This document shows positions 31,846 to 56,842 of a DNA stretch of 64,000 nucleotides, piece by piece. Under the pieces are notes generated by a model. That model searched no databases, had not been told where the DNA came from, and was given only the letters and a program-made list of their open reading frames with translations. Position 1 is the stretch's first letter, and each line of letters starts with the position of its first letter. Where the stretch lies: positions 26,420,052-26,484,051 of the forward strand of contig CM026565.1 in assembly GCA_015143295.1 (NCBI GenBank). The letters are read 5' to 3'. This DNA comes from Tetracentron sinense. Taxonomy: Eukaryota > Streptophyta > Magnoliopsida > Trochodendrales > Trochodendraceae. The position numbers and the translations under genes are program-made.

Positions 31846-34470
31846 GCGGCATAAGGAGTTTGTCCCAATGCCTCCATCCTTTGAATTTGAAATCCACCTG
31901 TTTGAGAGAGAAACCAGAAAACGCTTGTTGGCACGTTTTTGCACATCCAAGAGAAGAGCATAACTGCCACCATAAAAACCCTAATTCAAACTCGTCTTGA
32001 CTACTCTGTTCCATTCAAACAATGACAACCAGAGATGTTACTCCTTGATCAACAAGTTTAAGAAAATAAAATTACAAAATAGAAGTTAATGATTCATATC
32101 GGTTCTCAAAGGTTGCAAGGAAATCTCACGACAAATCTCACAGCCAAAGTGAAAGTTTGAAAATCTACGACTGCTAGCATTTCCAATAGTAAAGGTTTGG
32201 ACCAAAATTATTTACTAGCAAACAAGAGGTAAGGGGAAATAAAAATGAATTTTCTCAGAAAATTGGCTATGTATCGGTAATTGGTCGAAGCATATCGTCA
32301 TATAGAAATTAGCCGATATGTAATTTTAGCGGTAAATGAGTGTCGGAGAGGTATTAGAGATTTATAATTGAAGGAGTTTGAAAGATCCTTCCCAATGCCT
32401 CAATCCAATTTGAATCTGAAATCCACCTGTTTGAGAGAGAAGAACAAAAGAATAGAACTGCCATAATAACCCTAATCCGAACTTGTCTCGACTACTCTAT
32501 TCCAGTCAAACAACGACACGAGATTTTAGCGGCTAATAACTGTTTGAGAGGTATTAGAGAAATAAAATTAAAGGATTTTGAAAGATCTTTCCCAGTGCCT
32601 AAATCCAATTGGAATTTGAAATTCACCTGTTTGAGAGAGAAACCTAAAAATGCTTGTCGGCGTGTTTCTATGCATCTAAGAGAAGAACAGAACTACCACC
32701 ATAAAATCCTAATGCGAACTCGCTTCAACTACTCTCTTTCATTCAAACAACGACACGAGATGTTACCCCTTTAATAAATCCAAGAAAATAAAAATTTCAA
32801 AACAGAAGTTAACGATCGATTTATGTTCTCAAAGGTTGCAAGGAAATACAACGACAAATGTCATTACCACAGTTAGAGTTTGAAAATTAGCGATGGTAAA
32901 CATTTCTAATCTTTTTAAACAAAGTTCTGAACCAAATTTATTTAGTACCAAATAAGAGGTAAGGGGAAATAAAAATGTATTTTCTCAAATGATTGGCTAT
33001 ATATTAGAAATCCGTCTAAGCATATTGTCATAAAGAAATTAGCCGATATGATATTTTAGCGGCAAATGACTGTCTAAGAGTTATTAGAGATTTTGAATTA
33101 ATGGAGTTTGAAAGATCTTTCCCAGTGCCTCAATCCAATTTGAATTTGAAATCCACCTGTTTGAGAGAGAAGAACAAAAGAATAGAATTGCCATAATAAC
33201 CCTAATCCGAACTTGTCTCGACTACTCTATTCCAGTCAAATAACGACACCAGAGTTTACCCCTTCAACAAGTTTAAGAAAATAAAAAATGTCAAAACATA
33301 AGTAAATGATTGATATCAGTTCTCAAAATTTGCGAGGAAATGTAACGACAAATGTCACTACCACAGCGAGAGTTTGAAAATATACGTCGGCAAGCATTTC
33401 CAATGTTTTAAAGTAAAGGTCTAGAACAAAAGTATTTAGTACCAAACAAGAGTTAAGGGGAAATAAAAATGAATTTTCTCAAATGATTGGCTCTGTATCG
33501 ATACTAGGTCGAGGCGTATCATCATATAGAAATTGGTTGATATGATATTTTAGCTGAAAGTCGTTCACGAGGTATTAGAGATTTAAAATAGAAGAAGTTT
33601 GAAAGATCTTTCCCAATTCCCTGATCCAATTTGTATTTGAAATCCACTCGTGAGAGAGAAACAAAAAAACGTTTGTTGGCGCGTTTCTACTCATCGAAGA
33701 GAAGAATAGAACTACCACCACAAAAACACTAAACCAGACTCATCTCAATGACCCTTTTCCATTCAAACAGTGACAACTATATATGTTATCCCTTGAACAA
33801 GTTTAAGAAAATAAAAATTTTAAAACAAAAGTTAATTATTGGTATCGGTTTTCAAATGTTGCAAGGTGATGTAACGACAAATGTCGCTACCACAGTAAGA
33901 GTTTGTAAACATCTGTGACTGCCAGCATTTCTAAAATTTTTAAGCAACGGTCTGGACCAAAATTATTTAGTACCAAACAAGAGGTATGGGAAAATAAAAT
34001 TGAATTTTCTCAAATGACTGGTTATGTATCGGTAACCGGTCTATTCTTATTGTCATAAAGAATTAGCCAATATGATTTTTTAGCAGCAAATGACTGGCCA
34101 AGAGATTTTAGAGATTTAAAATTAAAGGAGTTTAAAAGATCTTTCCTAGTGCCTCCATAATTTGAAATCCACCTGCCAGAGAGAGAAACTAAAAAACGCT
34201 TGCGCATTTTTTTTGCACATCCAAGAGAAGAATAAAGCTACCATCATAAAACCATAATTTGAACACATCTTGACTACTCTATTCCATTCAAATGACACCA
34301 GATATGTTTCCCCTTCAACATGTTTTAAGAAAATGAAAATTTCAAAACAGAAGTTAATTATTGATATCGGTTCAAATTTTGCATGGAAATGTAACGACAA
34401 ATGTCGCTACCATAATGTGAGTTTGAAAATTGGCGACGACTAGCATTTAAACATTTTAAAGCAAAGGCCT

Positions 34471-37400
34471 TGTAGAGACCCGCATCTTTTCATGTCATTG
34501 CCTAGTTTATCAGGGGTATTTTAGTCTTTAATGCTTCTTCATGCGTGCGTTCTTGCATAACTGGTTATCTTGAGGGTTTTTTTTCTCATGGCCCAAGTTT
34601 GTTGTGAGTTTAATGTATGAGTCAAGAGGTGTGAGGTGTTTTTGGGAAGCAAACAAAGAGTATGAAACATACTCTATGTGTTAAGTGAATAGTGCTTATA
34701 GAGGTTAAGGTCTCTACGTATAGTCTTAGGTGTTTCTTAATGAAATAATGATTTGATGTAGGTGTATGTTGAGTCTAACCAAGAGGATTCGAGTACTCTA
34801 AATATCTAAGATCATAGAGTGTAAAATACCCTACCCTAAGTGTGTATGTAGAACTCTGGGAGTCATGTGGTTAGTGCTAGTGCGCAAGGCATAAAGGAGT
34901 CGGGACCTCTCATGTAAATTAGTGTGTGTTCAATGATCACCTAGTTGGGTTAGAACATATGGCAGTGGAATCATGAGATGAGAGTAGGGGTTGGAATCTA
35001 GGTAGATGGAGTATGAAAATAACCCGAGGGTCAGTGAGGGATGCCTTAACATACCCTAAAACTTTAGGAAGCTCTAATTTTGTCACTGTTTATCAGAATC
35101 GAGTGATTCTTGAACCATTAGAAAGGTAATGGAACCCTCTTCGAGGTTCATGTTTAAGGTTTTTCCAGATTTTGAATCTAAGTTAAGTCAAAAGTGGATT
35201 TTCCAATATTTTGTCTGATAAATTATAGATCATTCAACTTGTAGGCCCATTTAGACCATTTAAAACTCAAAATTAAGATTTTTGTAAAATATCAAAGTTG
35301 TTCCCCTTCAAAAGATGAGTCCAACGTAAGTTAAATCGTTAAAATCCAATGAACAAGTCAAAAGTTATGGTCAAAATACCAAAATGAAGTAAAATCTATC
35401 GGAATCCGGAAAAGGGATGTGCAATCGATTGCAAATTTCTGTGATCGATTGCATTCAGGTGAGTTTTTTTGATTGGCTTTCGGGTCTAAGTGCGATATAT
35501 CGCATCAAATGTGCGATCGATCGCACGCGGACCCATAAATTGTTAAAAAAGTGTTTTTTTAAGGTTTTTAACCCTTGGGGCTATAAATAGGGACCCTATT
35601 TCGAGGTCTTAGGGTATTCTACTCATTTATAACCTAATTTAGCAAAGGGAGAGTAAGAACTTAGGGTTCTAAGAGGGTTTGAGCTTGGAGAAGAAGGGTT
35701 TTTCTTAAAGAAGAAGAGGATTAGCTTGGAGATCTTCCCCAAAGCATCTCAGGAGCGATTTTGGATCCAAGGGAAGGATCCCTAAGATTGATATCCCCTC
35801 TAACTCAACCCTAGTAATGTTTTGATATATTAAAATAGAAATGATTATGGATTCTCAAGAGATTTACATGAATATGCATGGATTAAAGAATAGAAATATA
35901 AATTTTAGTCAATATCTTCTCTAATCTAATTTTTTGTATTATTTATGATTATTGATTTAACATGATAAATGATGGATTAATGTTGGATTTATATGTTAAG
36001 TAAGGATGTAGATGGATTGATATTTTAGAAGCTTAAATGGAATTATGGGATTGTGTTTATGGGTTATGAATGAATGAAATGACGGAGGATAGGCTAAAAT
36101 GGATGATGGATTGTGAATGTGTGGATTTCTGTTGTGTTTGGAATGGATGAATGTGGTTTATGGATGAGTAGGTTAAGGTTATAGAATATGAAAATGGGAA
36201 GGGCATTGTATACTTAACTAACACATGATAGGTGTTTGATGAAATGTTTAGGAAACACCAAGTATGGAAATGAAGATATTGAAAGGTTTTATGAGTACAA
36301 TAAGATATGCTATGATGAATTATGCTTAGAAATGATATTATAAATATTAGCATGAGCATGATAATAGATGAATTATGCTTAATCATGTTGCATGGTGATT
36401 GATATTCGGGTAGGCCAATGCTTAGAGGAAGTCCTCCATGTCGGGAATTCTCTAACTAAGGAGGTGTAACCTAGCGGAGTTTCTTGACGGAAGATGGAAT
36501 CTAAGTGATGACCGAACTCGGATACCAATCACAACACTCAAGCATAAGTCCACATGTGTGGTAGTTTACAAGTCTCATGGGTACACAAGCATGAACATGG
36601 TCACTGCATGGACACGAACATTGCATGAACATGGACATTGCATGGATACTGAAATATAAGGACAAGGACAAGTACAAGAACTCTGAATACTGAACTACAA
36701 GTACAAGGACACTGAATTACAAGTACAAGGACACTGCATGGTTTTACAAGGACCCTGAAATTCAAGTAGCTCCAGTATTCGTTGATGCTCTCCATGGATA
36801 AAGTTTCAAGTCCTGGATAATTATCATGGATATTTGGGATCTAAGAGCTCTGGGAGATTACGCTTTTGTCGATGCACCTCCATGGATCTAAATACAAAGA
36901 CCTCGATACCATTTCTATGGGAAAACAAGCATGCATTGTATTCATGTTACAAGTTCAAGAGTTACAAGTCCATGAGTCACAAGTTCAAGAGTTACACAAG
37001 TACATGAGTCAAGCTAAGTCATGATATTCACATGTTTCCGCATTCTGATTATGTTCACGTTGTATTAAATTGCTATTGACCTTTACAATTGTTACATGTT
37101 TTGGATATTTGACATATGCTTGTACTATGGTTGGTTAGTTTGGTTATCCATTGAGTATTCCATGCTCAGTCGACCTGTTATTGTCGTACAGGTCTAGCTC
37201 AAGATCAGGTGGCTTCTCTTGGGTTGGAAAATGAGTATTTTGAGGAAGCGAAAGAAGATGACCTTCCGGTTGATGGAGTCCGGGATCCTGACCGGTTCTC
37301 ATGCTATTAGACTATTTCCAGTTTAGCCTTGTTGATTAAGAACTTGTTATAGACTTGAGGCTTATTAGTAGATGTTGCTTTAGTTATGTTTTGGGTTTTG

Positions 37401-37578
37401 GATATATCAGTTGACGACATTTGGATGGATCCTTTTATATTGAAAGAAATTTTATAATCTCTATTTTTGGAGAATTATCTTTTAGTTATGTCTTATTGCT
37501 ATGGAGGTTAAGCAGAGATAAGTAATGTGGTGGACCCAAAGTCTCATTATGACCAAGGTGGGTTTTGGGGTCGTTACA
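34471..37578 (+). mobile_element. Solo LTR (Ty3/gypsy, Tekay-like), 3.1 kb, in the satellite
   Basis: Starts TGTAGAGACCCGCATCTTTT and ends GGGGTCGTTACA. Flanked by GGCCT (34466-34470) and GGTCT (37579-37583), a 5-bp duplication with one change. It has no gag or pol. It resembles the LTR of the element at 44256-50596 at its start, around the TATA box (CTATAAATAGG, 35581), at GATATTCGGG and near its end. A cluster of palindromes at 35421-35526 precedes the TATA box. Formed by LTR-LTR recombination. Confidence 0.85.
35421..35590 (+). promoter_or_regulatory. Palindrome cluster and TATA box in solo LTR 1
   Basis: GCAATCGATTGC (35421-35432), a GATCGATTGC half-match (about 35443), TGCGATATATCGCA (35491-35504) and the perfect 16-bp GTGCGATCGATCGCAC (35511-35526). 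These are followed after 54 bp by CTATAAATAGGG at 35581. Confidence 0.7.
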
Positions 37579-40500
37579 GGTCTGGAGCCAAATTAATTAG
37601 TCCCAAACAAGAGGTAAGCAGAAATAAAAATGCATTTTTTCAAATGACTGGCTTGTATTGGTAATCAGTCTAGGTTCATCGTCATAAAGAAATTAGCCGA
37701 TATCATATTTTAGCAGCAAATGAAAGCCCGAGAGGTATTGGAGATTTAAATTAAAGGAGCTTTAAAGATCTTTCTTAGTGCCTCCATCCAATTTGAATTT
37801 AAAATCCACCTATCCGAGAGAGAAACCAGAAAATGCTTGTGGGTGCGTTTCTGCGCATCTAAGAGAAAAATAGAACTGCGATCATAAAAACCCTTCAAAA
37901 CTGGTCTCGATTACTCTACTTCATTCAAACAACAACACCCGAGATGTTACCCCATTAATAAGTTTAAGCAAATAAAAAATTCGACACAGAAGTTAATGAT
38001 TGTTGTCGGTTTTAAAAGGTTGCAAGGAAATGTAACGACAAATCTTGCTACCACAATGAGAGTTTGAAAATCTGCGACAGCTAGAATTTTCAACATTTTT
38101 AAGCAAAGGTTTGGATCAAAATTATTTGGTACTTGGCAAGAGGTAAGGGGAAATAAAAAATGAATTTTTTCGAATAAATGGCTATGTATAGGTAATCGGT
38201 TCAAGCGTATCGTCATAAAGAAATTAATTAATATCATATTTTAGCGGCAAATGACTGTCTCAGAGGTATAAGAGATTTAAAATTAAAGGAGTTTGAAATA
38301 TCATTCCAAGTGCATCCATCCAATTTGTATTTGAAACCACTTTCCTGAGAGAGAAACCAAAAAACGCTTGTTGCCGCGTTTCTGTGAATCCAAAAGAAGA
38401 ACAGAACTACCATCATAAAAACCCTAATCCAAACTCGTCTCGACTACTCCATTCCACTAAAACAACAACACCAGAGATGTTACCCCTTCAACAAGTTTAA
38501 GAAAATAAAATTTTCAAATCAGAAGTTAATGATTGATCTCGAATCTTAAAGGTTGCAAGAAAATGTAACGTCAAATGTCACAACCATGGTGAGAATTTGA
38601 AAATCTATGACGACAAGCATTTCCAATATTAAGTAATGGTTTGGACTAAATTATTTAGTACCAAAAAAGTGGTAAGGGGAAATTAAAATGAATTTTCTCA
38701 AATGGCTAACTATGTATCAATAATCAGTTTAGGCTTATCGACATAAAGAAATTAGTCGATATGAGATTCTAGCGGCTAATAACTATCCGAGACGTATTAG
38801 AGAAATAAAATTAAAGGAGTTTGAAATATCTTTCTCAGTGCCTCCATCAATTTGAATTTGAAATTCAACTATTTGAGAGAGAAACCAGAAAACGCTCGTC
38901 GACACATTTCTGCGCATCCAAGAGAAGAACAAAATTGCTACCATAAAATCCTAAGTGAACTCACCTCAACTACTCTATTTAATTCAAACAACGACACCAG
39001 AGATGTTACCCCTTCAACAAGTCGAAGAAAACAAAATTTTCAAAATAGAAGTTGACGATTGATTTCGGTTCTCAAAGGTTGCAAGGAAATGTAATGACAA
39101 ATGTCATTACCACAGTTAGAGTTTGAAAACCAGTGATGGTAAGCATTTCCAATCTTTTAAAGCAAAGTTGTGGACCAAATTTATTTAGTACCAAACAAGA
39201 GGTAAGGGGAAATAAAAATGAATTTTCTCAAATGATTGACTATATATCGGTAATTCCCTAGGCATATTTTCATAAAGAAATTAGTTGATATGATATTTTT
39301 AGAGGCAAATAACTGTCTGAGAGGTATTAGAGATTTTAAATTAATGGATTTTGAAAGATCTTTTCTAGTGCCTCCATTGAATTTGAATTTGAAATCCACC
39401 TGTCTGAGAGAGAAACCAGAAAATGCTTATTCATGCATTTTTGCACATCCAACAGAAGAACAAAATTGCCATCATAATAACCCTAATCCGAACTCGTCTC
39501 GACTACTCTATTCCAGTCAAACAATTACACTAGAGATTTTACCCCTTCAACACGTTTAAGAAAATAAAAATGCCAAAACAGAAGTAAATGATTGATATCG
39601 GTTCGCAAAGGTTGAAAGGAAACGTAACGACAAATGTTACTACCATAGTGAGAGTTTGAAAAACTATGTTGGCAAGCATTTCCAATATTTTAAAGTAAAG
39701 GTCTAGAAAAAATTTATTTAATACCAAACAAGATTTAAGGGGAAATAAAAATGAATTTCCTCAAATGATTAGCTATGTATCGATAATTGGTCGAGGCGTA
39801 TCGTCATAAAGAAATTAGCTGATACGATATTTTAGCGGCAAATGATTGTACGTGAGGTATTAGAGATTTAAAATAGAAGGAGTTTGAAAGATTTTTCCCA
39901 ATGTCCCAATCCAATTTGTATTTTAAATCCACCCGTTTGAGAGAGAAACCAAAAAACGCTTGTCGACACGTTTCTGCGCACCGAAGAAAGAATAGAAAAC
40001 CGCCACCACAAAAACCCTAATCCTGACTCATCTCAATGACCCTTTTCCATTGAAACAATGAAAAATATAGATGTTACCCCTTGAACAAGTTTAAGAAAAT
40101 AAGAAATTTAAAACAAAAGTTTATGATTGATATCGTTGCAAGGTAATGTAACCACAAATTTTACTACCATAGGGAGAGTTTGAAAAGCTGTGATGGCTAG
40201 CATTTCCAATTTTTTAAAGCAAATGTGTGGACCAAAATTATTTAGTACCAAATTAGTGGTAAGGGGAAATAAAAATTAAAATTTTCAAAAGACTGGCTAT
40301 GTATAGGTAATCAATCTAAGCGTAGTGTTATAAATAAATTAACCGATATCATATTTTAGTGTCAAATGATTGTCTGAGAGGTATTAGAGATTTAAAATTA
40401 AAGTAGTTTGAAATATCTTTCCCAGTGCGTGCATCCAATTTGAATTGGAAATTCACCTCTTTGAGAGAGAAACCAGAAAACTGTAGAACCCCAGACCTAG

Positions 40501-40991
40501 ATGATATGTTATGGCATGTAGTAAGCCCTCAGAGTGTTTTCTTAAGCTTATGGATGTTTGAGATGAAGGAGTAGAGCATAAAATACTCTAAGTGTTAAGA
40601 ATGGAAATATCATAACATTACCCTCAACTTTAAGAAGCTTATTTTTGCCACCGCTTATCGGAATCGAGTGATTCTTGAATTTTTGGAAAGGTATTAGAAC
40701 CCTCTTCGAGGTTCATGTTTATCATTTTTTCATATTTTGAGTCGGGGTTGAGTCAAACGTTGAATTTTCGTAGTCGGATCTGTTGAAAATCCGGGCTGCT
40801 GAAACCCATTTCCAGACCAGTCGGCTTTAGAGCCCATTTAGGTAATTAAAAACTTAGAATTAGGTTTTTTCTATTGGACATAAAATTATTCACCTTTGAA
40901 TGTCGAGTCCAACACAAGTTGAATCGTCAAAATCTGATAAGCAAGTCAAAAGTTATGGCTGAAATACCAAAGCACATTTTTAAGAAAAGCC

Positions 40992-41150
40992 CTCTCGAGC
41001 GAGCTCCAAGCCCGCTTGAGAGAACTCGACCAAAAATTGTGTTTTTGAGTCCAGGGAGCAGCCCGCTCGAGCGAGACCCAAGGCCGATCGAGTGAGATTG
41101 CACAAACACATTTTTTTTAGGTTTTTCACTAACCTAACACTATATATACC
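40992..41150 (+). promoter_or_regulatory. Palindrome cluster and TATA box in solo LTR 2
   Basis: CTCTCGAGCGAG (40992-41003), CGCTCGAGCG (41064-41073, perfect palindrome) and CGATCGAGTGAG (about 41085). TATATATACC follows at 41141, about 45 bp after the cluster. Confidence 0.6.
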
Positions 41151-41638
41151 CAACTTTCGGGGGTCCAAGGGTTCCAACACTTAGAGAGAGACTTTTTGAA
41201 AGAAAAAGGAGGAAACCTAGGTTTCCAAGAGAGGGTTCTCATTCTTGAGTGAGAGAATTGAACATTGGGTGACCTAGATCATACCCAAATCCTTAGATTC
41301 TTCAAATCCAAGGCAAGGCACGCAAGGAGCACCTCCTTCAAGTTCAAACAACAACTTTCATGACCATTTGCTTGAGATTTCTCCCCCATTTGAAGGTCGG
41401 TACCCCTATTTCTCAACTTGTCACGTTTTCTTCTCTTTCTCACTTGTGTTTCTCCATTTCTTGCTTTTCCCTAAAATTTTCACATGATATGAGATGGATT
41501 TTTTAAATGGATGCCATGGATGGTTGAGATGTGATGGGAAAAATTGGAAGGGCATTGTACACATAATAAACACACATGATATGTTGGATGAAATGAGCTT
41601 TACTCGCTTTATAGAAAAGCATGATTGTAGATTTACTC

Positions 41639-42866
41639 TGTAAATCCCTAAATAGGTGTTGGCAAATTCTGTGATCATTAGATAGGTCATGTGAGTCGAG
41701 TCGTCGAGTCATGTTCAACTTGTCAGAAGAGAAGAGCTAAAGCTTAAAGAAGATTGAAGAAAGAGAAGAAAAAGCTTCTACTCTGGATCTAGACAGGTAA
41801 TGGACTTAGAGACCCCTACCTAGGTTGGTTTTGGCTTAGATAACTCTAAACATACCTAGGAAGATAGTTTTAAACCTAACAAAATTGTTTGATCTTAGTT
41901 GAATCAAATAAACATGAAAAGACATATGGTTTGAACAAAATTCTGTCTCAACCGATCGCTCGGTATTGGGACCGATCGATCGGTGGCCTACCGAGCGATC
42001 GGTGGCTATCGACTGGACAAAAAGTTTGTATGGGCTATTTTTCCAGAGAGATGATTTATAACCGAGCGATCAGTCATTTGGACCGAGCGATCCGTTTTGG
42101 ACCGAGCGATTGGTAATGAGCACCGATCGATCGGTCTCCGTAAAAATTTTTTTTCTTTTTCTGGATTCTTTTTTTAAACCCTATATAAACAAATTTTTGG
42201 AGACCTAATTCGTGTCTTTGATATTCTTGAAAGAGTAGAGGTCTGAGAAACTCTTCTAGGGTTTTTCTTATTGCTTTTATTAGATCTTTGTTGATCCCTC
42301 CTCTTTCTTTGATCCTAGAGAATGCAAGTATAGATCTAAACCTTTGATCTTGCATTGTGTGATCTCAAATCTATATGAGATCCCTCTAGGGTTTGAAATT
42401 TCATAAATTGATTCACAACCCTACACCTTGTGTGTGTGTCCGGTGTTTGATCCGGAGCCTTCGTGGAAGGAGATCGATCGTGTGTGATCGTGGTTTGAAG
42501 TAGCTTGAGAAGATTTGGTCGGTGTGGAACCGAAGCTGCTACGGCGGAGATCGAACCTGCTGGTTCGTGGAAATCAAGAGGAAGAGTCTATACCTAGGAA
42601 CGTCGTTTCTGTTTTGGTAAGGTCTTGTCTTGTACTTGATATCTTTTCATAGCGAAGTTTGTTGTTGGACGAGGTCCCGTGGTTTTTTCCCGTTAGGGTT
42701 TTCCACATAAAAATCTTCTGTGTTTGATTTGTGTGGATTGTCTGAGTATTATGTTCATTGATTTCTAAACATATTAATTGAAAAATTAAAATTGGTTAGA
42801 AATTTTTAGATAGACCTATTCACCCCCCCTCTAGGTCTTAGAGATCATAGATCTGGATATATTTCA
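41639..42866 (+). mobile_element. Nested solo LTR, Ty1/copia type, 1.2 kb
   Basis: TGTAAATCCC...ATTTCA with exact 5-bp duplication TACTC (41634-41638, 42867-42871). The 3' part carries GTGGTTTTTTCCCGTTAGGG, TTTTCCACATAAA and CTATTCACCCCCCCTCTAGG, phrases common in copia LTRs of plants. TATA CTATATAAAC is at 42181. It sits in a roughly 35-bp direct repeat of the host LTR (CTCGCTT..TAGAAAAGCATGATTGTAG on both sides). Confidence 0.82.
41951..42190 (+). promoter_or_regulatory. Palindrome cluster and TATA box in the copia solo LTR
   Basis: ACCGATCGCTCGGT (41951), ACCGATCGATCGGT (41971 and 42122, perfect 14-bp palindromes), ACCGAGCGATCGGT (41990) and several ACCGAGCGAT half-copies (42061-42111). 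The TATA box CTATATAAAC at 42181 is 45 bp after the last one. Confidence 0.7.
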
Positions 42867-44255
42867 TACTCGCTTCCTAGAAAAGCATGATTGTAGTAGA
42901 TTTACTTGCTTTCAATTAATTATTGCCTTGAAATGCTATGTTCATTTATTTCATGCGTTGAATTGTACACGATTTACGAACACGACATGTAGATCATAAA
43001 TTAGGATTTTCAAGCATGAACACCAAGTTTTGATTTTAAGAAAACAAGAATAAAATGACTCGATTCATGAACACCATGATAAGGACAAACATAAGGGTTG
43101 GTAAAAAGGTAGGGCATATCCTCGGGTATGTCTTACCCCATTTTTCACAAGGACAAGCAAGATGTTAGTGTGCCTTTCAAGCATGCATGTTTCCATGAAG
43201 GGTGTTTGCACCTGGCTTCAAGTTGCTTCTATTGCATTTTCACTGAAGGGAGTTTATACATCCGACTTCAAATAGTTTGACATGTTTCACTGAAGGGAGT
43301 TTACACTCTCGACTTCAAGTCGTTCAAGGGCACTAACATCCCAAGCATGCATGATAAGCAAGCACGTTTAATTCCAAGCAAGCAAGCATGTGCATACTAA
43401 TGTCATGACAAACATTCATGCATTTGCATCCGCATTCAAGCAAGTTTTTCACAAGAAATCAGAAATGACAAGACAAGGGACAAGACAAATTCTCACAAGC
43501 ACGAAAACTAGTTTTAAAATTTAAGAAAACAAGTCAAGACAAGAATACGATGATTTATCAAGGTTTTACCATTCATGATTCAAGCATGTATGAATATTCA
43601 CTGTTTATTGCTTTATTATTGTTGTTTATTGTTTGTTGTTCTGCTTATTATTATTATTATGCACTGCTTCTATGACTTGTTGGTTAGTAGTGAGTGTCTG
43701 CTGAGTGTTTCAATACTCAGCCGTACATTTGATGTCGGCAGGTGTTAGTGGAGCGACTGCTCCTTTTGACATATGCGCTCCCGGTCCATGAGAGGAAAAG
43801 GAATACGTAGAGGAGGTTCCAGCTGGTGAGCCTCATGGTGAGGATGGAGAGAAATTGCCCTATCTAAATTATGTCTAGTGAACATTGAGATTTGGTGAGG
43901 GAGAGATACTTGTATATTTTGTGGTGGTCATGTCCACCCTGTCTTTTGTATGTTGTACATAACTTGGGATACTTGCTTATATATATATGAAATAGATATT
44001 TTGCTTCCGCTGTGTCATGTATCTCTTCCGCTATTGCATGCTTTGACTCTCTTTTGCAGGATGGTTTGTCAAGTCATGTCAAGTCTCGTCCAAGATTCAC
44101 TCTAACTCTTAGGGTAGATTTTGGGGCGCAACAAAAACGCTTGTCGGTGCGTTTCTGCGCATTTAAGAGAAGAACAAACCTACTATCATAAAAAACCTAA
44201 TCCGAACTTGTCTCGACTACTCTATTCCATTCAAACAACGACACCAGAGATGTTA

Positions 44256-45149
44256 TGTAGAGACCCGAATCTTCTTTTATGCCTTTAATAGAATTAATAA
44301 GGATAGTTTAGTCTTTTGCTATATTTTTATGAATATTTAATTATATTTAAGTGGTGTAGTGTGGTTTAAAGGTTTAAGTGATAATAAGGTGAAAAAAAAT
44401 CAGAGGCGATGATCGATCGCAGGTGAACTGACGATCGATCGCCTAGAACCTGAAATCTTGGGAAGCCACTGTTTTGTGCGACAATCGATCGCACTAACGT
44501 GACGATCGATCGTCCTGAGCCAGAAAATCTGGGTAAGCTTTTGTTTCTTCGACGATCGATCGTAGCAGATGCAACGATCGATCGCTAGGCGAGTGACGAT
44601 CGATCGCCCAATATGAAGATCAATCGCAAGTTGCAGATCAGGTTTTTAAAAGAGTTATGGAAATGAGGATTTTAAACCCTTAGGCTATAAATAGAGGTTC
44701 TATTTCGAGGGTTTTAGGGTTCTAACCTTTCTAAACCTAATTTAGCAAAGAGGGGAGAGAAAACCTATGGTTCTAAGGAAGAGATTGCTTGGAGAGGAAG
44801 GAGATTGCTTCGAGATTACAAGAAAAGCTTGAGAATCAGCATCAAACCTTCTAAGGAGTATTTTGGATCCAAGGGAAGGATCCTTAAGGTCGATATACTA
44901 TCCAACTCAACCCTATTATGATGTTTTGTGAATATTAGTATGATAGAAATGATAGAAACAAAGATTAGTTATGTTTTTCCCCAATTATGTATGAATTAAG
45001 TTTATTAAAGATGGAAGTGTGGTTACTACTATGGATGGAATGTATGGAGGATGGAAAATAATATAAAGAATGGGATGAATGTCTGGAGGTGGATTGTGTT
45101 TGGGTTGTATGGATGGATTATGGTATGGTGAAATGTTGGAAATGGGAAA
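44256..45149 (+). repeat. Truncated 5' LTR of the Tekay-type element
   Basis: Matches the 3' LTR from its start to AATGTTGGAAATGGGAAA, then diverges into protease-coding sequence. It includes about eight CGATCGATCG-type sites (44411-44627; perfect palindrome GACGATCGATCGTC at 44501) and TATA GCTATAAATAGAGG at 44685. Confidence 0.85.
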
Positions 45150-45179
45150 AGTTTTGTAAGTCTGTTAAACCGTAAACTA

Positions 45180-48100
45180 TCTATCACCACTCATGTTGGT
45201 ACTTCAGTCATCATTGATAAGGTCTATCGAGCTTGTGATATTCGAGTGGGTCAGAGAGAAATGTCAGCTGATATGATTGTCCTTGAATTCTAAGACTTCG
45301 ACGTCATACTAGGTATGTATTTATTTTTCCAAAATCATGGGCATGTCGATTATTTTGGGAAATTAGTCAACTTTAGGCTAATCAGTGAACCCCCTTTTCG
45401 TTTCCAAGGATTGAAGAAGGAAGACTTAGCTCGATTTGCTGCATTGAGTCTTGCTACCTCGGAAGCATCAAATTCCTCAAGTATCCCTATTATAGAGGAA
45501 TTCATGGATATATTTTCGAAAGACTTGCCGTGTTTGCCACCAGATAGAGAAGTAGAGTTTACAATTGAGTTAGCTCCGAGCACGACACCCATCTCTAAGG
45601 CGCCATATAGGATGGGTCCAGTAGAGTTGAAAGAGCTAAAGGAGCAGATTGAAGAGTTGTTCGATCTTTGATTTATTCGCCCAAGTGTGTCACCTTGGAG
45701 AGCTCTGATTTTATTTGTGAAGAAGAAAGATGGTTCGATGAGGATGTACATCGACTATCTGTAACTGAACAAGGTCACTATCAAAAACAAGTATCATTTG
45801 CCTAGGATCGATGACCTATTCGATCAGTTGCAATGAACAAAGTATTTCTCTAAGATCGAATTAAGGTCAGGCTACCATGAGTTCAAGATAAAGGCCAAAG
45901 ATGTACCTAAGTCTGCTTTTCGAACCTGTTATTGGCATTATGAATTTCTAGTCATGCCATTCGGTTTGACAAATGCCCTGGGGAGCCTTTATGGATCTCA
46001 TGAACAGAATCTTCAAACCAACTCTTGACCGCTTTGTGATTGTGTTCGTGGATGACATTTTGGTGTACTCTAAGACTCAAAAGGAGCATGAGATGCATCT
46101 CCAGGTTACGCTGAAAAGACTCCGTGAGCATTAGCTGTTTGCTAAGCTTAGCAAGTGTGAATTCTGACTGGAAAAAGTAACATTTCTAGGTCATGTGTTG
46201 TTGGCAGAGGAGATTTCAGTTGATCCTGCTAAGATAGGAGCAGTGGAAGGTTGGAAAAGACCAAAGAGCGTTACAGAGATTCGAAGCTTCTTGGGCTTAG
46301 CTGGATATTATCGAAGATTTGTGGAAGGTTTCTCCAACTTGGCAGCACTGGTTACCTATCTTACTTGAAAGAACGCCAGATTTGAGTGGAATGAGAAATA
46401 CGAGAAGAGTTTCCTTGAGTTGAAGAAGCGTATCACCACCGCTCCGATCTTGACTGTATCGTCCAGTAGCGGAGGTTTTGTGGTGTATAATGATGCCTCA
46501 CTTATTGGGTTAGGATATGTTCTTATACAACATGGGAAGGTGATTGCCTATGCTTCTTGGTAGTTGAAAGACCATGAGAAGAACTATCCTACCCATGACT
46601 TGAAGTTGGCAGCATTAGTCTTTGCTCTCAAGATCTGGAGACACTACTTGTATGGTGAGCAGTTTGGGGTATTCACCGATCACAAGAGCTTAAAGTATCT
46701 GTTCTCGTAGAAGGAGCTAAATTTGAGGCAATGCCGTTGGGTGGAATTCCTTAAGGATTATAATTTCTTTATCCAATACCACCTAGGGAAAGCAAATGTG
46801 GTGGCGGATGCGCTAAGTAGGCAACCTACTAGACTCTTGGCACATTTGATAGTCTAAGAATGGAAGCTACTTGAAGAAGTGTCTAGCCTTGATGCGAGTT
46901 TTAGTGTTGGAACGTCTTGAGCTTTGATGGCCAACATTATGACCAGACCAACCATCTTGGAAAGGATTAAAGACTTACAGTGGGAGGATGGAGAACTGCA
47001 CGCTGCCATGAACAAGTCGATTAGCAGCGGGTTTGAGGATTTCTCTTAGAGAGATGGTGGAATTTCTTTCAAGGACAAACTTTGTGTTCCGGATAATGAG
47101 GATTTAAGAAGGGAGATTCTCGATGAAGCATACAAGTCTAAGTACACTGTCCATCCGGGGGGTACTAAGATGTACCAGAACCTCAAGAAATATTTCTGGT
47201 AGAAGGGCATGAAAAAGGACTCGACTACTTATGTACCCAAGTGTTTGGTTTGTCAGCAAGTGAAGACCGAACACCGGAGACCGGCAGAACTTCTTCAGTC
47301 TCTTCTTATTCCCGAGTGGAAGTAGGAAAATATCTTTATGGATTTCATTGTTGATCTGCCAATAACGGCTAAGAACTTTGATGCCATTTGGGTCGTAGTC
47401 TACAGGTTGACTAAGTCGGCTCATTTCTTTTTGTATCGAACCACGTTCAATTCCAACTAGTTGGCCAACCTTTATATCAAAGAAGTAGTTCATTTGCAAG
47501 GAGTGTTGGTTAGTATTGTTTCCGATTGAGACCCAAGATTTACTTCCAGATTTTGGAAGAGTTTTCGACAGGCTATGAGTTCTCGTTTAGATTTCAGTAC
47601 AACATTTCATCCACAGATAGATGGGCAAACTAAGAGGGTGAACCGGATCATAGAGGACATGTTACAGGCCTGCATGTTAGACTTCCAGGGTAGTTAGGAT
47701 GATCACCTGTCGTTGGTTGAATTTGCCTACAAAAATAGCTATTAAGAAAGTATTCAGATGATGCCATTTGAGGCACTCTATAGGAGGAGTTTTCGTTCAC
47801 CTTTGTGTTGGGATGAAGTCGGCGAAAGGAGGTTTCTGGGTCCCGAGCTCGTTAGTCAGACTGTGGACAGAGTTCAGTTGATCATAGAGAGGTTGAAAAC
47901 AGCTCAGAGTAGGCAGAAGATCTATGCTGACACTCACCAGAGATATCTTGAATTTCAGGTTGGAGACCTTGTGTTTGTCAAGATCTCACCTACGAAGGGG
48001 GTGATGAGATTCGGTAAGCGGGGCAAGCTTAGTCCGAGATATGTGGGTCCTTTTGACATCATCACCCGGGTCAGGGAAGTTGCTTATCGGCTCACCTTGC

Positions 48101-48378
48101 CACCTCACATAACTAGTGTGCTTAATGTCTTCCACATCTACATGTTGAAGTACATTTCGGATCCTTCGCATGTCATCGATTTAGATCTATTGGTAATCCG
48201 AGAAGATTTGACTCTTTTGGAGCAACCGGCACAAATTTTGGATCGGAAAGAGCAAGTCTTGCGCACCAAAGTCATTCCTCTAGTACTCTTGCAATGGGAG
48301 CATCACTTTCGGGAGGAAGCTACATATGAGCGAGAAGATGAAGTCTGTGAAAAGTACCCGTACTTATTTATCTAAGGT
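45180..48378 (+). pseudogene. Degenerate pro-pol of the Tekay-type element (PR, RT, RNase H, integrase, chromodomain)
   Basis: In order: protease end (MIVLEF, DFDVILGM); linker and RT ([35 protein letters not shown] at about 46045, [26 protein letters not shown]); RNase H ([38 protein letters not shown] at about 46800); integrase (HPGGTKMYQNLKKYF, CLVCQQVK, MDFIVDLP, VSD-DPRF with a stop, FHPQIDGQTKRVNR); and a C-terminal part ending ILDRKEQVLRTKVIPLV ... EEATYERED, chromodomain-like. Many in-frame stops and at least one frameshift (near 45980) make it inactive. The longest open parts are 45315-45671 and 47758-48375. Confidence 0.9.
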
Positions 48379-48406
48379 ACGTAAATTTCGAGGACGAAAT
48401 TCTCAT

Positions 48407-48419
48407 AAGGGAGAAAGGA
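48407..48419 (+). other. Polypurine tract
   Basis: AAGGGAGAAAGGA lies immediately before the TGTAGAGACC of the 3' LTR, where plus-strand DNA synthesis is primed. Confidence 0.75.
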
Positions 48420-50596
48420 TGTAGAGACCCGAATCTTCTTTCATGCATTTAATAGAATTAATAAGGGTATTTTAGTATTTTTCTTATGTTTTTATGCATA
48501 TTTAATTATATCTAAGCGGTGTAGTGTGGTTTAAATGTTTAAGTGATAATAAGGTGAAAAAAAATAGAGGTGATGATCGATCGCAGGTGAATCGACGATC
48601 GATCGCCCAGAACCTGAAATCTGGGGAAGTCACTATTATGAACGATGATAGATCGCACTAACGTGACAATCGATAGTCCTGAGCCAGAAAATCTGGGTAG
48701 GCTTTTGTTTCTTCGACGATCGATCATAGCAGATGCGACGATTGATCGCTGGGCGAGTGACCATCGATCGCCCAATATGACGATCAATCGCAAGTTGAAA
48801 ATCAGGTTTTTAAAAGAGTTATGGAAATGAGGATTTTAAACCGTAGGCTATAAATAGAGGTTCTATTTTGAGGGTTTTAGGGTTCTAACCTTTCTAAACC
48901 TAATTTGGCAAAGAGGGGAGAGAAAACCTAGGGTTCTAAGGAAGAGATTGCTTGGAGATAAATGAGATTGCTTCAAGATTGCAAAGGAAGCTTGAGAATC
49001 AGCATCAAACCTTCTTGGAAGTGTTTTGGATCCAAAGGAAGGATCCCTAAGGTCAATATACTATCCAACTCAACCCTATTATGATGTTTTGTGAATATTA
49101 GTATGATAGAAATGATAGAAACAAAGACTAGATATGTTTTTCCCCAATTATGTATGAATTAAGTTTATTAGAGATAGAAGTGTGGTTATTACTATGGATG
49201 AAATGTAAGGAGGATGAGAAAAAATATGGAGGATGAGATAAATGTATGGAGGCGGATTGTGTTTGGGTTGTATGGATGAATTATGGTATGGTGAAATGTT
49301 GGAAATGAGAAAGGGCAATGTATTCATAAATTACGTACCCAAAGTGTTTGTTGAAATGCTTGAGATGATAAATATTAATATGACACTATGAAATTGTTGT
49401 GAAACTAAGTCAAAGATGTATTGTTGTTTGTCATGATAATATCTAATAGATAATGAATAACTTATAAATGAATATTTGTGAAATTGATTATGAATTATGC
49501 TAAGAATTATGATAATGTATTTATATGTGATTGTTTGTTAAGTTATGCCTAATTATTTGCATGATAATTGATATTCGGGAAGGTAAGAACTTAGAAGAAA
49601 ATCTTTCAAACCGGAAATTCTCTAACTACATGGTATGAGACAATATAGTGGAGTTTCCATGGTGGGAGATCGGAATCTAAGCGATGACCAACTCGAATGT
49701 TAATCGTGACACTTATGCAACTCACGTGTATGTTCAGATAAGAGTCTCATAAGTCAAACATGTGGACCACAAGCATAAGCACTGCATGCGCCTAATAGGC
49801 TGAATAAGCCCAATGAGGGATCTAAATAAGTGTATGTTCTGAATGAATAAGCTGCTCAAAGACTCATAAACATAAGCATTGCATACGCCTGATAGACTTA
49901 ATAAGCCCAATGAGCGATCTAAATAAGTATATAATCTGAATACGTGCATAAGCATAAGCATAAGCATCTCACAAGCACGTGGTGTCATAAGCATGTTGTC
50001 TCATAAGTCTAAGATTCTCACAAGTACACGAGTCAAGGTGATGATATGATGTATATGAGCACATGTTTTTCCGCATTTTGATTATGTTATTATGCTATTG
50101 GTTATAGTTCTAACTAAGTGCAGAGATACTATATTGTTGGTTGGATTTTATATATACCGAGTGCTTTTGTACTAAGTCAGACTTTTGTCTTGGCAGGTGT
50201 GGAGCCCGAGTTTGTAGGTGAGCTAAGGATGGAGGAGGCTTACGGTATAGAGGAGGAAAACGATCCTCTGATGGAGGGAGAGCGAGAGTTGGACAGGTGA
50301 CCTTATCATTAGGCTTTTACTTTCGAACTGTGAGGAGTTTTGTAATAGACCCTTAGATGATGTTGCTTATTAGATTACTTTATAGTTGTGTATCAGAATA
50401 TTTGGTTTACGGTGAGTTATGTTTATGTTGACCGTAGACTTGAGTAGGATGATTTGGTTTTATATATCGAAATTTTATTACTCTCATTTTGGAGACTCAT
50501 GTTATATGCCTTGTATGTCATAGGAATTAAGCAGATTTAAGAAATGTGGCGACCCAAGGTCCTATTTTGGTCAAGGTAGGATTTGGGGTCGCTACA
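48420..50596 (+). repeat. 3' LTR of the Tekay-type element (2.2 kb, full length)
   Basis: Starts TGTAGAGACCCGAATC and ends GGATTTGGGGTCGCTACA. It contains the CGATCGATCG cluster (about 48575-48791, several sites mutated relative to the 5' LTR) and TATA GCTATAAATAGAGG at 48847. The CCGCATTTTGATTATG stretch near 50075 is also found in solo LTR 1. The frames inside are not coding. Confidence 0.87.
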
Positions 50597-51364
50597 TGTT
50601 ACCCCTTCAACAATTTTAAGAAAGAAAAATTTCAAGATAAAAGTTAATGATTGATCTCGGTTCTCGGAGGTTGTAAGGAAATGTAATGACAAATTTCACT
50701 ACCACTGCGAGTGTTTGAAAATCTACGACAACAAGCATTTCCAATATTTTTAAGTAAAGTATTGGACCAAAATTATTTAGTACCAAGGAAGAGAAATAAA
50801 AATGAATTTTCTCAAATGACTGGCTATGTATCGGTAGTCGATTTAGGCTTATTGGCATAAATAAATTAGGCGATATGATATTTTAGCAGCAAATGATTGT
50901 CCACGAGATATTAGAGATTTAATATTAAAGGAATTTGAAAGGTATTTCCCACTGCCTCCATCCAATTTGAACTTAAAATCCCCCTATTTGAGAGAGAAAC
51001 TAGAAAACGCTTGTCGGCGCGTTTCTGCGCATCTAAGAGAACCGTAGAACTGCCATAAGAAAAACCCTAATCTGAACTCGTTTTGACTACTCTATTCCAT
51101 TCAAACAATGACACCAGAGAAGTTACCCCTTCAAAAATTTAAGAAAATAAAATTTCAAAACAGAACTTCATGATTGATATCGGTTCTCAAAGGTTGCAAG
51201 GAAATTTAAGGACAATTGTCACTACCATAGTGGGAGTTTGAAAATTTGTCAGGGCTAGCATTTCCAATATTTTTAAGCAAAGGTGTGGACCAATATTATT
51301 TACAACCAAACAGGAGGTAAGGGAAATAAAAATAAAATTTCTATTTCTCAAATGACTGCCTATG

Positions 51365-51542
51365 ACACACCAGAGCTTTGTCCCAGTGGTAATGTATCTC
51401 CTGATTTGGGGGGAGGTACTGGGTTCCATTCCCGAGAGGGTGGGAGTTTGTATATACTCTCCACCCGCCCACTAACTGAACAAATACTAACACCTAACCG
51501 GCGTTGCGGCCTAAACGTATATCTCGAACCAAAAAAAAAAAA
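51365..51542 (+). mobile_element. tRNA-derived SINE, family 2, full length, inside a satellite monomer
   Basis: A-box-like TTTGTCCCAGTGGTAATG, B box GGGTTCCATTCCC (51420-51432), a body with CTCCACCCGCCC and GGCGTTGCGGCC, and an A tail to 51542. Target duplications GACTGCCTATG (51354-51364) and GACTGTCTATG (51543-51553) differ at one base and match the satellite consensus. Confidence 0.87.
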
Positions 51543-52521
51543 GACTGTCTATGTATGGGTAATCAGTTTAGGCATATCGTCATAAAGAAATTATCTGATA
51601 TGATATTTTAGCCGCAAATGATTGTCCGTGAGGTATTTTGAGATTTAAAATTAAATGAATTTGAAAGATCTTTCCCAGTGCCTCCATCCAGTTTGAATTT
51701 GAAATCCACATGTCGGAGAGAGAAACCGGAAAATGTTTGTCGTCGTGTTTCTGCGCATCCAACAGAAGAATAGTATTGCCATCATAATAACCCTGATCTG
51801 AACTCTTCTCGACTACTCTATTCCATTCAAAAAACGACATCAGATATATATGTTACCCCTTCAAAAAGTTTAATAAAATAAAATTTTCAAAACAGAAGTT
51901 AATGATTGATATCGGTTCTCAAAGGTTGCAAGGAAATATAACTACATATGTCACTACCACATTGAGAGTTTGAAAATCTACATCGGCAAGCATTTACAAT
52001 ATTTTTAGTAAAGGTATAAACCAAAATTATTTAGTACCAAACAAGAGGTAAGGAGAAATATAAATGAATTTTCTCAAATGATTGGCTATGTATTGGTAAT
52101 CGGTCTAGGCGTATCATCATAAAGAAATTAGTTGATATAATATTTTAGCGGGAACTGACTATTCGAGAGGTATTATAGATTTAAAATTGAAGGAGTTTGG
52201 AAGATCTTTCCCAATGCTCCTATGCAATTTGAATTTGAAAACCACTTGTCTGAGAGAGAAATCAGAAAACGTTTGTCGACGAGTTTCTGTGCAATAAAGA
52301 AAAGAATAGAATTGTCATCATAAAAACCCTAATCCAAACTCGTCTCGACTACTTTGTTCCATTCAAATAACTTCAGTAAGTTTAAGAAAATAAAATTTTC
52401 AAAACAAAAGATAATGATTGATATCGATTCTCAAATGTTGCAAGGAAATGTAACGACAAATGTCACTACCACAGTGAGAGTTTGAAAATATGCATTGACT
52501 AGAGTTTTCAATATTTTTTGG

Positions 52522-55258: not shown

Positions 55259-56366
55259 TGTCGACACAAAATTTCGTGGACGAAATAATGATGAACAAAA
55301 TATTTTATTTATTTTCAGTTTGGTACAACTCTCAAGAAATCCTCTGATTAACAATCAGAAATTTCTAAAATAGAAGATGAGGGCCGAGGCGTGATCTCGA
55401 TCTTCTTTGAAGGTGTTGATGTAGCTTTTCCTTTCTTCCGGGCTTCGCACTTAATCGGCTAGAAAGTTATTTTGGAGGAGAACTGGCTTCTTTGCAGCTT
55501 TGTCTTCTCCGGAATGATTTGATTTCTTTTCTTTGAAGGCTAGAGAATGCTTCTGAGTTCTCTTCTTTGGCTTCTTCTGAATTTCTCTCTCTGAATTTCT
55601 GAATCTCTAAATCTCTAGCTTTGGCTCTTATTTATAGACTTTTAGAGATAAGGATCTCAAGAATCCTACTCCATCTAGTGGTTTAAAGGATTTAAGAGAT
55701 CTTAATAAGGCTTATCCATTTAGAGATAAGGATTTCAAGAGTCCCACTTTATTTAGTAGTTTAAGGGATTTAAGAGATCTTGATAAGACTTATCCATTTA
55801 GAGATAAGGATTTCAAGAGTCCCACTCTATTTAGTAGTTTAAGGGATTTAAGAGATCTTGATAAGACTTATCCATTTAGAGATAAGGATTTCAAGAGTCC
55901 CACTCTATTTAGTAGTTTAAGAAATCTTGATAAGACTTATCCATTTAGAGATAAGGATTTCAAGAGTCCCACTCTATTTAGTAGTTTAAGAGATTTAAGA
56001 GATCTTGATAAGGCTTATCCATTTAGAGATAAGGATTTCAAGAGTCCCACTCTATTTAGTAGTTTAAGGGACTTAGGAGGCTTTCATGGGCCCCACCCAT
56101 CTTCTTGGGTATTGAGTCCACAATCAGGTTTTTTGTATTGACGGATCGACCCACTTATCGAGTGTATGACCCATTTAGATTTGGACTTGAGTTTTGAGTT
56201 TATAGGCTTTCTACTTCGTGCCCAGACCCGAGCCGTAAAAGGCTCATGCCTTGTCATTAGGCCCAATTTAAATGTATAGGGCTTTTTAATGATTTTAGGC
56301 TTTTTATATAATTTTATCAGAGTGTAAGGACCTTTGCGTAAAATTAATAAATTTTAGGGTTCTACA
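55259..56366 (-). repeat. 3' LTR of the Tat element (1.1 kb)
   Basis: On the minus strand it starts TGTAGAACCCTAAAATTTAT (56366) and probably ends ...TTTGTGTCGACA (55259). It has a TATA-like CTATAAATAAGAG at about 55628-55640. Directly upstream of this lie six tandem 78-bp repeats. The 3' boundary is judged from the TG...CA rule because the second LTR is not in view. Confidence 0.72.
55643..56080. repeat. Six tandem copies of a 78-bp sequence in the U3 of the Tat LTR
   Basis: TAGAGATAAGGATTTCAAGA starts at 55721, 55799, 55877, 55946 and 56024, with a slightly diverged copy at 55643. One copy (55877-55945) lacks 9 bp. Each carries GTCCCACTCTATTTAGTAG and GAGATCTTGATAAG. They sit immediately upstream of the TATA box of the LTR promoter (minus strand). 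Confidence 0.9.
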
Positions 56367-56382: not shown

Positions 56383-56728
56383 GTATAATGATGGAACCTA
56401 TGAGTGACATTAGTGTAACCCTTGATTTAGTGTTTGATTTGGATTTAATTTATTTGGAGTTTATCTTGATTTGGGTTAGACACGAATCCTATTCCTAATG
56501 GGATAAGGAGACAGGTTACCTCCCCTTACAAATAGGAAGAGAACGGCATTAATGCACCCATGTTTTTTTTTGTGCAGGTTTGGGTTTTAGACATTCGAGT
56601 GCCGAAAGACCCGAAACGGCCTGGACTAAGTCGGCGATGCCACTGTACGGTTCCCGTTTGTTGGAGACAACAGTTTGCTGCTAATGGGTTTTTTTTTTTT
56701 TTTTTTTTTGATCTGTTTTTTTTTTTTT

Positions 56729-56801
56729 ATGGTAGCTGAACCTGAGGTAACTTTACAGGCTGCCTACGTACCCGTAATGGGATCAAGCTTTAACGTAGTT
56801 C

Positions 56802-56842
<41 letters not shown>

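Follow-up and report, generated by a model that had tools for sequence, protein, structure and literature searches.

What are the short CpG-containing palindromes that lie just upstream of the TATA box in several long terminal repeats (LTRs) of Tetracentron sinense, and why do LTRs of different retrotransposon superfamilies carry them? The question arises from a 64-kb stretch of this 1.16-Gb genome (G000:C15:26420052-26484051, hereafter the window), in which a tandem satellite with a unit of about 530 bp spans positions 31859-52518 and is interrupted by LTR elements. These are two solo LTRs of chromovirus type (LTR 1 and LTR 2), a Ty1/copia solo LTR nested in LTR 2, and a decayed Ty3/gypsy element that begins at 44256 and has an LTR at either end. 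As argued below from position, symmetry, spacing and turnover, the palindrome clusters are probably enhancer modules of the unique 3' (U3) region of the LTR, that is, helix-phased arrays of two-fold symmetric sites for a predicted dimeric DNA-binding protein.

Position and excess over chance

An earlier note on this DNA had placed CpG palindromes just upstream of the TATA in five LTRs, and they are indeed present in all five, the last box ending 45-58 bp before the TATA. The flanks that it described are also correct for GTGCGATCGATCGCAC (35511-35526), ACCGATCGATCGGT (41971-41984 and 42122-42135) and GACGATCGATCGTC (44501-44514), whereas its TATA places are only roughly right, four of the five being off by one or two bases (the actual starts are 35582, 41141, 42182, 44686 and 48849). 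The window contains 30 exact palindromes of at least 10 bp with a CpG, 12 of which fall in the five stretches that the note had delimited, 830 bp in total (one starts one base outside). Measured from its centre, the last box lies 51-64 bp before the TATA in the four window arrays measured, 62-84 bp in four further arrays, and 51-81 bp in nine of ten arrays, a set which the decayed 3' LTR of the 44256 element entered by its first box only. A phasing of these box-to-TATA distances like that of the boxes themselves is not claimed, the values being few.

The word CGATCGATCG occurs 74,402 times in the genome, compared with 822 occurrences of the reversed word. It was considered as the conserved feature in its own right and rejected, as LTR 2, L008a, L017, L045 and others carry other cores; the box of LTR 2 is CGCTCGAGCG (41064-41073).

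The excess over chance was estimated by scanning 264 kb, composed of the window and 20 arbitrary 10-kb stretches, for exact palindromes with a similar palindrome 18-23 bp away. The scan returned 17 clusters (4 in the window, 13 in the arbitrary stretches) versus 0-2 in each of 10 Markov-1 resamplings, and the nine other 6-bp spacing bins held 0-5 clusters. The non-CpG palindrome AACCATGGTT accounts for five of the 17, and in four of these five cases no TATA-like word lies within 160 bp. Of the other twelve, nine are found upstream of a correctly oriented TATA, seven according to the scan and two (41953, 48574) by reading, their TATA being beyond the reach of the scan. The last three comprise a pair at L019 with a decayed-looking TATA (by reading), a pair upstream of an open reading frame (ORF) in the Sirevirus L017, and TTGGGCCCAA in L014, which is probably unrelated. 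At a distance of 19 bp, and in some cases with one of the two copies altered, pairs of AACCATGGTT occur in 4 of the 20 arbitrary stretches (L002:1231-1259, L011:2354-2382, L011:4546-4574, L014:9023-9051 and L020:1290-1318) and represent another repeat family with two-turn spacing.

Spacing and helical phase

Boxes are repeated at close range throughout the genome. With 0-30 bp between the two copies, the five box types together form 19,512 close pairs against 5 for the reversed controls: 16,389 for CGATCGATCG (control 1), 1,556 for GGGTCGACCC (1), 905 for CGGTCGACCG (0), 334 for CGCTCGAGCG (0) and 328 for CGTTCGAACG (3). The tests of spacing and distance used the first 50 listed places per pattern, which come from contigs C1 to C7 at most. 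Among the 250 close pairs so obtained for the five boxes (search range 10-40 bp), 211 are spaced at 18-22 bp and 30 at 38-42 bp, although these are not 250 independent events and many are probably copies of one family. A spacing histogram divided by palindrome class was too thin for use.

The longer gaps are informative as well. Neighbouring boxes in nine arrays are separated by 19-23, 49-51, 62-65 or 71 bp, with additional gaps of 37 and 28 bp in L008b; one overlapping and the isolated CGATCGATCG places were omitted, and three scan hits, one each in L003, L017 and L008b, were dropped as doubtful, the last of them being out of phase. The longer gaps, near 40, 50, 62 and 71 bp, are approximately multiples of 10.2 bp. 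Over the pairwise box distances of the nine arrays the phase statistic R is 0.56 at 10.2 bp, compared with 0.10 at 9.5 bp and 0.04 at 11.5 bp, and the observed value was reached by none of 5000 simulations in which each gap was jittered by up to 5 bp, also when close relatives were removed and seven arrays remained. If no box is dropped, R is 0.46 at 10.2 bp, again with 0/5000. With 10.2 bp fixed beforehand, the statistic V is 0.61 for CGATCGATCG pairs at distances of 41-71 bp (the 50 listed of 5,168 in the genome, with a few places that were already among the CGATCGATCG places used above) and 0.54 for the corresponding CGTTCGAACG pairs (150, 50 listed), in each case with 0/100,000 uniform draws as high. 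Four arrays found later, including L019a with a doubtful first box retained, gave 1/5000 at 10.2 bp. A period of 10.0-10.2 bp is near the turn of B-DNA, and therefore the boxes tend toward one side of the helix.

The carriers of the arrays

Judged by its sequence signs, the copia LTR of the window (41639-42866) is a Sirevirus, because its polypurine tract (PPT) and primer-binding site (PBS) match the Sirevirus signs given in the available text of Bousios et al. 2010 (PMC2829016). Of 30 genomic copies, each viewed with 1.5 kb of flank, 13 have the PPT (AGGGGGAG directly 5' of the 3' LTR) in the form of a AAAGGGGGAGAT-type run that precedes the LTR; the others are solo or 5' LTRs, one variant (L039), truncated copies and copies with other flanks. 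The PBS (LTR end CA/ATTGG, then TATCAGAGC) is represented in 4 of the 30 by CA followed directly by ATTGGTATCAGAGC after the LTR. A C-rich integrase signal near the LTR end has also been described for Sireviruses (PMC2829016); here 31 bp separate the C-rich CTATTCACCCCCCCTCTAGG from the end of the LTR, the published average in the same source being 21 bp, a comparison by distance and not by letters. The CGG-CCG signature of the published Sirevirus boxes is absent, as box ACCGATCGATCGGT has the order CCG-CGG, but this signature is usual and not required, since Tnd-1 is an exception within the same paper (PMC2829016, as far as available).

The 44256 element encodes a gypsy RNase H (RT_RNaseH_2, 45.4 bits, Pfam cut-off 29.8) and a Tf2-type integrase SH3 domain (SH3_Tf2-1, 77.9 bits, cut-off 30), and is therefore called chromovirus-type. 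RVT_1 scored 20.7 bits, under its cut-off of 29.6, three of the six pieces of the element had no Pfam match, and no chromodomain was matched by Pfam in its last open stretch (47746-48372). "Tekay-type" is the label that the earlier note had given to this element, whose reverse transcriptase is broken. Upstream of the array, LTR 1 and LTR 2 are 72% identical along 363 bp; downstream of it, LTR 1 and the 44256 LTR are 75% identical along 291 bp. Thus, LTR 1, LTR 2 and the 44256 element share homologous flanks and the gypsy cases form one clade, leaving the Sirevirus as the sole independent case in the window. When LTR 1, LTR 2, L003 (see below) and the 44256 element were examined as possible Sireviruses, their LTR flanks proved common to these four and not to Sireviruses; by this comparison, the chromovirus arrays resemble the repeated motif of Sireviruses, yet their elements are not Sireviruses.

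The earlier claim that different families are involved consequently needs to be narrowed: it stands for the copia LTR, which has no flank homology to the others, and not for the solo LTR 1, LTR 2 and Tekay-type LTRs among themselves. Likewise, a core is shared, as had been said of three families, but two of these belong to one chromovirus clade and LTR 2 lacks CGATCGATCG. The opposite possibility, that all these LTRs derive from one recent family, was rejected, as there are two LTR groups without mutual flank homology and eight box spellings within the gypsy group.

Two observations concern relatives of these carriers. Same-strand pairs of LTR 2 relatives about 7.5 kb apart (G000:C5:29835808 and 29843329; C1123:23651 and 31120) are probably longer LTR 2-type elements. 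The Sirevirus-like L017 (528-559, 808-1851) has PPT-like runs at 2613 and 3064 and, at the env position ahead of its 3' LTR, an ORF with a box pair upstream; PF20167 was the sole Pfam match of the ORF, and a search for a PDB relative gave none at E 0.01. Sireviruses with env and such a layout are described in the available text of Bousios et al. 2010 (PMC2829016).

Different box spellings behind related flanks

A search with the chromovirus flank ending just before the array found 16 places, one of which is LTR 2 of the window again (locus L021), leaving 15 regions; together with 5 regions chosen because an array was present, 20 were tested for dyads. The boxes behind this upstream flank are TGCGATCGATCGCA (LTR 1), CTCGCTCGAGCGAG (LTR 2, L010), ACCGATCGATCGGT (L003, L019), CTACGAWCGATCGTAG (L010, L049), ACCGGTCGACCG (L045) and the imperfect AGGGGTCGACCGGT (L019), and the downstream flank adds GACGATCGATCGYC (44256 LTR) and, weakly, ACCGTTCGAACGGT (L008). 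Eight spellings thus stand behind related chromovirus flanks, one of them weakly linked and one imperfect. Most fit the pattern NN-CG-n-TCGA-n'-CG-NN, in which n takes all four bases. A strict de novo call found dyads in 6 of the 15 flank-matched regions, and inspection found them in three more (L010:8432 and L019 twice).

Other regions behind the same chromovirus flank look different. L001:9410 (minus) has a non-palindromic box array (about AACCATCGAAAATGAG) with steps mostly of 19-22 bp, and L009:3797, L009:9063, L010:2385 and L018:2426 (minus) are full of AACG/CGTT half-site repeats without clean palindromes.

Within one family the boxes vary less than their surroundings. In the 30 Sirevirus LTR copies, divergence from the majority at non-CpG sites is 0.18% (0.0018) in the boxes and 0.71% (0.0071) in the spacers of the same array; the counts are small and the copies related. 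Because the copies were chosen by array similarity, a comparison of the array with the rest of the LTR is biased, and therefore only boxes and spacers within the array were used for this purpose. CpG sites are divergent in 1.6% of cases in the boxes and 2.9% elsewhere in the LTR. Most Sirevirus boxes have constant outer arms, ACCGA/TCGGT, around a centre that is TCGA, TCGC or GCGA, as expected if a dimer would read the arms.

Exchange of an array between superfamilies

One array has apparently changed its carrier. L003 is a chromovirus LTR, as it is 76% identical to the 3' LTR of the 44256 element over 1150 bp down to the end GGGGTCGTTACA, and 79% identical to LTR 1 over the 95 bp of upstream sequence compared. 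Its array (109-295), however, is 75% identical to the Sirevirus array 41951-42136 over 187 bp, and the likeness extends to the spacers: with the boxes masked, Sirevirus 41951 matches L003 with z 13.9 and the Sirevirus L017 with z 5.2, and L003 matches L017 with z 5.0. A match to the Sirevirus spacers is also seen for L045 and L019:248 (z 13.0 and 6.8), whose upstream flanks are of chromovirus type, whereas the match to Sirevirus 41951 fails for LTR 1 (z -0.2), LTR 2 (z 2.0) and the 44256 LTR (z 0.2); LTR 1 and LTR 2 match the L003 spacers weakly (z 3.6 and 3.7). L003 is a high-copy sequence, since all 40 scored candidates (itself included, from 5,278 in a first look) were 95-100% identical, 38 of them spanning the full 669 bp and the other two 662 bp and 664 bp. 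Three pairs of copies on the same strand are separated by about 7.4 kb, as expected of 5' and 3' LTRs.

The L003 array is thus homologous to the Sirevirus array, spacers included, and the module therefore crossed between superfamilies; exchange, and not convergence alone, explains part of the core sharing. Transfer from Sirevirus to chromovirus may be the simpler direction, because the spacer is common to two Sireviruses whose boxes differ, and LTR 1, LTR 2 and the 44256 LTR do not match it. Nested insertion was seen twice (the Sirevirus LTR in LTR 2, and at L045 a Sirevirus copy next to chromovirus LTR sequence) and, followed by deletion between boxes, could provide a route for the exchange.

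What the arrays may do

The simplest account is that dimers bind these sites cooperatively and thereby activate or de-silence the LTR, because the sites are symmetric, lie on one helix face 50-85 bp before the TATA and have one spelling per array. Adjacent dimers would face roughly the same side of the helix and feed the TATA promoter downstream. Each element family has a single version of the box, which in most cases reads NN-CG-n-TCGA-n'-CG-NN, its variable positions being symmetric. The boxes within an array change together, presumably as the specificity of the binding protein turns over, and whole arrays can move between LTRs, at least once between Sirevirus (Ty1/copia) and chromovirus (Ty3/gypsy). 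Protein binding, the dimeric state, the activation or de-silencing of the LTR and a specificity that changes along with the boxes are what we infer from this arrangement. The arrangement itself was observed directly: where the boxes lie, their symmetry, spacing and phase, their repetition across the genome, their turnover between related flanks and the shared array. The earlier note had suggested a common host DNA-binding dimer. A dimer site at the DNA level is the best-supported reading, given the symmetry, the spacing of about 20 bp and the phase of about 10.2 bp, and the protein may be of host or of element origin. It is possible, but rather doubtful, that a family of dimeric proteins of host or element origin reads the boxes as a small code: the frame CG-n-TCGA-n'-CG would stay constant, the symmetric positions n and the outer dinucleotide would select the partner, and the two superfamilies would diversify by concerted box turnover and array swaps, in the manner of an arms race or of a partition of activators (anti-silencing).

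The palindromes might instead serve in RNA, the boxes of the 3' U3 pairing in the transcript to form hairpins that aid the element (RNA dimerisation, packaging) or are diced by the host to small interfering RNAs (siRNAs), the latter having been put forward for Sireviruses of maize. Seven of eight arrays do fold better than their dinucleotide shuffles (z -2.7 to -6.4; the remaining one z -1.5), and papers citing Bousios 2016 describe palindromes in maize Sirevirus LTRs as small-RNA hotspots. RNA structure is nevertheless an unlikely primary cause: it predicts neither the phase of about 10.2 bp of the long gaps nor the fixed place before the TATA, and box TGCGATATATCGCA of LTR 1, with a different yet symmetric centre, keeps its self-symmetry but mismatches its partner box. 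Folding is real as a side effect. A chromatin signal without any sequence-specific dimer, in which dense phased CpGs position a nucleosome or mark a target of methylation or demethylation before the promoter, would make use of the two or three CpGs present in most boxes and of a repeat of about 10.2 bp, which is close to the repeat of nucleosomal DNA. CpG density by itself, though, explains neither the perfect dyads, nor the single spelling per array, nor the lower non-CpG variation of the boxes relative to the spacers. Furthermore, the control palindrome CGAACGTTCG, with the composition of CGTTCGAACG and three CpGs, gives 5 close pairs versus 328. The chromatin signal seems more unlikely still than RNA structure, even if the available text of Bousios et al. 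2010 (PMC2829016) describes Sirevirus boxes as CpG islands. The least probable explanation is a neutral by-product, in which slippage or tandem duplication of a unit of about 20 bp multiplies boxes that persist by promoting slippage and have no function. Tandem duplication is visible in the period-72 array of the Tekay-type LTR, and gaps are common to copies within a family by descent; however, gaps that cluster near 40, 50, 62 and 71 bp do not form a tandem series of one unit, yet have a common phase, the spacers are more divergent than the boxes, and behind homologous flanks all boxes of an array change their identity in concert.

Several results weigh against the proposed dimer sites. The unusually good RNA folding of the arrays is superfluous if the boxes act in DNA only. 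Six of the 15 flank-matched regions (L001, L004, L009 twice, L010:2385 and L018) have no palindromic consensus, their arrays being non-palindromic or missing, and dimer symmetry is therefore not required across the whole clade; the earlier view that symmetry rather than exact sequence is kept describes what is common and not what is obligatory. All five pairs of the control CGAACGTTCG are also 19-21 bp apart, so that it is no clean non-box control and may itself be a rare box. The phase tests overstate the evidence because copies of one family are not independent: with each distance counted once, the odds become 103/100,000 for CGATCGATCG and 314/50,000 for CGTTCGAACG. For the four arrays found later, the fit is better at 9.9 bp (0.69) than at 10.2 bp (0.39).

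Layout of the window

The features are collected in Table 1. The satellite that hosts the LTR insertions is left in the stretches 31859-34470, 37579-40481, 44133-44255 and 50593-52518, with units mostly 73-85% alike. Outside it, the window has a 78-bp minisatellite of 5.7 copies (55641-56079) and a T-rich 111-bp duplication (56693-56948). CGGATATCCG, found at window position 8209 and at L003:5882, L006:7400 and L009:2283, stands among similar ATATCCG repeats at L003 and probably belongs to another repeat family.

Table 1. LTR elements and box arrays in the window (steps are between box starts, in bp)
Feature	Position	Strand	Description	Basis
Solo LTR 1, chromovirus-type	34471..37578	+	TGTAGAGACCCG...GTTACA	Satellite homology stops at 34470 and restarts at 37575-37579; ends read
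LTR 1 box array	35420..35526	+	TGCAATCGATTGCA, TGTGATCGATTGCA, TGCGATATATCGCA, TGCGATCGATCGCA; steps 20, 51, 21; TATA 35582	
Solo LTR 2, chromovirus-type	40482..44133	+	TGTAGAACCCC...GCGCAACA; split by nested Sirevirus solo LTR	Satellite break 40481/44133; ends read
LTR 2 box array	40990..41096	+	4 boxes, type CTCGCTCGAGCGAG; steps 21, 51, 21; TATA 41141	
Sirevirus (Ty1/copia) solo LTR	41639..42866	+	1228 bp; target duplication TACTC	Boundaries from 30 copies including the window copy
Sirevirus LTR array	41951..42135	+	7 boxes, mostly ACCGA[TCGA/TCGC/GCGA]TCGGT; steps 20, 19, 71, 21, 19, 21; TATA 42182	
Candidate integrase signal	42816..42835	+	C-rich CTATTCACCCCCCCTCTAGG close to Sirevirus LTR end	Sequence reading
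Decayed Ty3/gypsy chromovirus-type element	44256..50596	+	TGTTA on both sides; 5' LTR truncated; stops in internal region; 3' LTR from 48420	
44256 element, 5' LTR array	44408..44628	+	8 boxes, type GACGATCGATCGYC; steps 22, 50, 21, 50, 22, 22, 20; TATA 44686	
44256 element, 3' LTR array	48572..48792	+	Same array, partly decayed; one exact 10-bp box remains; TATA 48849	

Meaning and comparison with known systems

An abundant, phased, family-specific promoter module that is shared between superfamilies gives a concrete handle on how plant LTR retrotransposons escape silencing and on the search for their activators. The regulatory region of an LTR can also have a history different from that of the element around it. 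Baits made from the boxes could serve to capture the predicted binding protein, and the gap rule allows a sharp test, half-turn against full-turn insertions.

The VANC anti-silencing proteins and the motifs of VANDAL elements offer a possible model of how short motifs could differ by family and turn over with their binding protein, but VANDALs are DNA transposons and the protein is encoded by the element. No VANC-like element-encoded protein was found among the few ORFs examined here. Copia elements of the Tnt1/Tto1 type have short repeated, sometimes symmetric, activator boxes in the U3 upstream of the TATA, which differ between subfamilies, as in the arrays described here; unlike these, the boxes are present in few copies and are unrelated in sequence. 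To our knowledge, phased arrays of CpG palindromes are not known from Tnt1/Tto1-type elements. For Tnt1, the available text of PMC2829016 mentions a symmetric box I.

The closest precedent is the palindromic repeated motif (RM) of Sireviruses, so that the earlier statement that no described element matches does not hold. According to the available text of Bousios et al. 2010 (PMC2829016), to which the statements on the RM refer, it is present in 3-14 copies per 3' LTR (8-32 per element), forms CpG islands just upstream of the TATA, which follows on average 37 bp after the island, has one spelling per element, and was termed Sirevirus-specific from a comparison within Ty1/copia. As the citing papers relate, Bousios 2016 (Genome Res 26:226) deals with palindromes that cluster in the regulatory LTR region and evolve fast, and with RNA structure, again like the arrays described here, but it is cited mainly for siRNA mapping and concerns copia only. 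Palindrome arrays of chromovirus LTRs, their phase and a copia-gypsy exchange of arrays were not found described in the titles and abstract openings listed, a search that covers few subscription journals. Thus, the Sirevirus part had been described before, and novelty seems to lie in the chromovirus arrays, in their phase, in the turnover and in the swap.

The arrays of Tetracentron share with the RM the palindromic boxes upstream of the TATA and the single spelling per element or array. Even individual spellings recur, as the Vitis motif CGGTCGACCG (PMC2829016) is the core of the L045 box and the core of Tnd-1 ACAATCGATTGT (PMC2829016) is the same as that of the first box of LTR 1. They differ from the RM in that most cores are CG-n-TCGA-n'-CG and not CGG-CCG, in that the spacing of about 20 bp, the helical phase and the exchange between superfamilies go unmentioned in the available text of PMC2829016, and in that the arrays are also present in LTRs of Ty3/gypsy chromoviruses.

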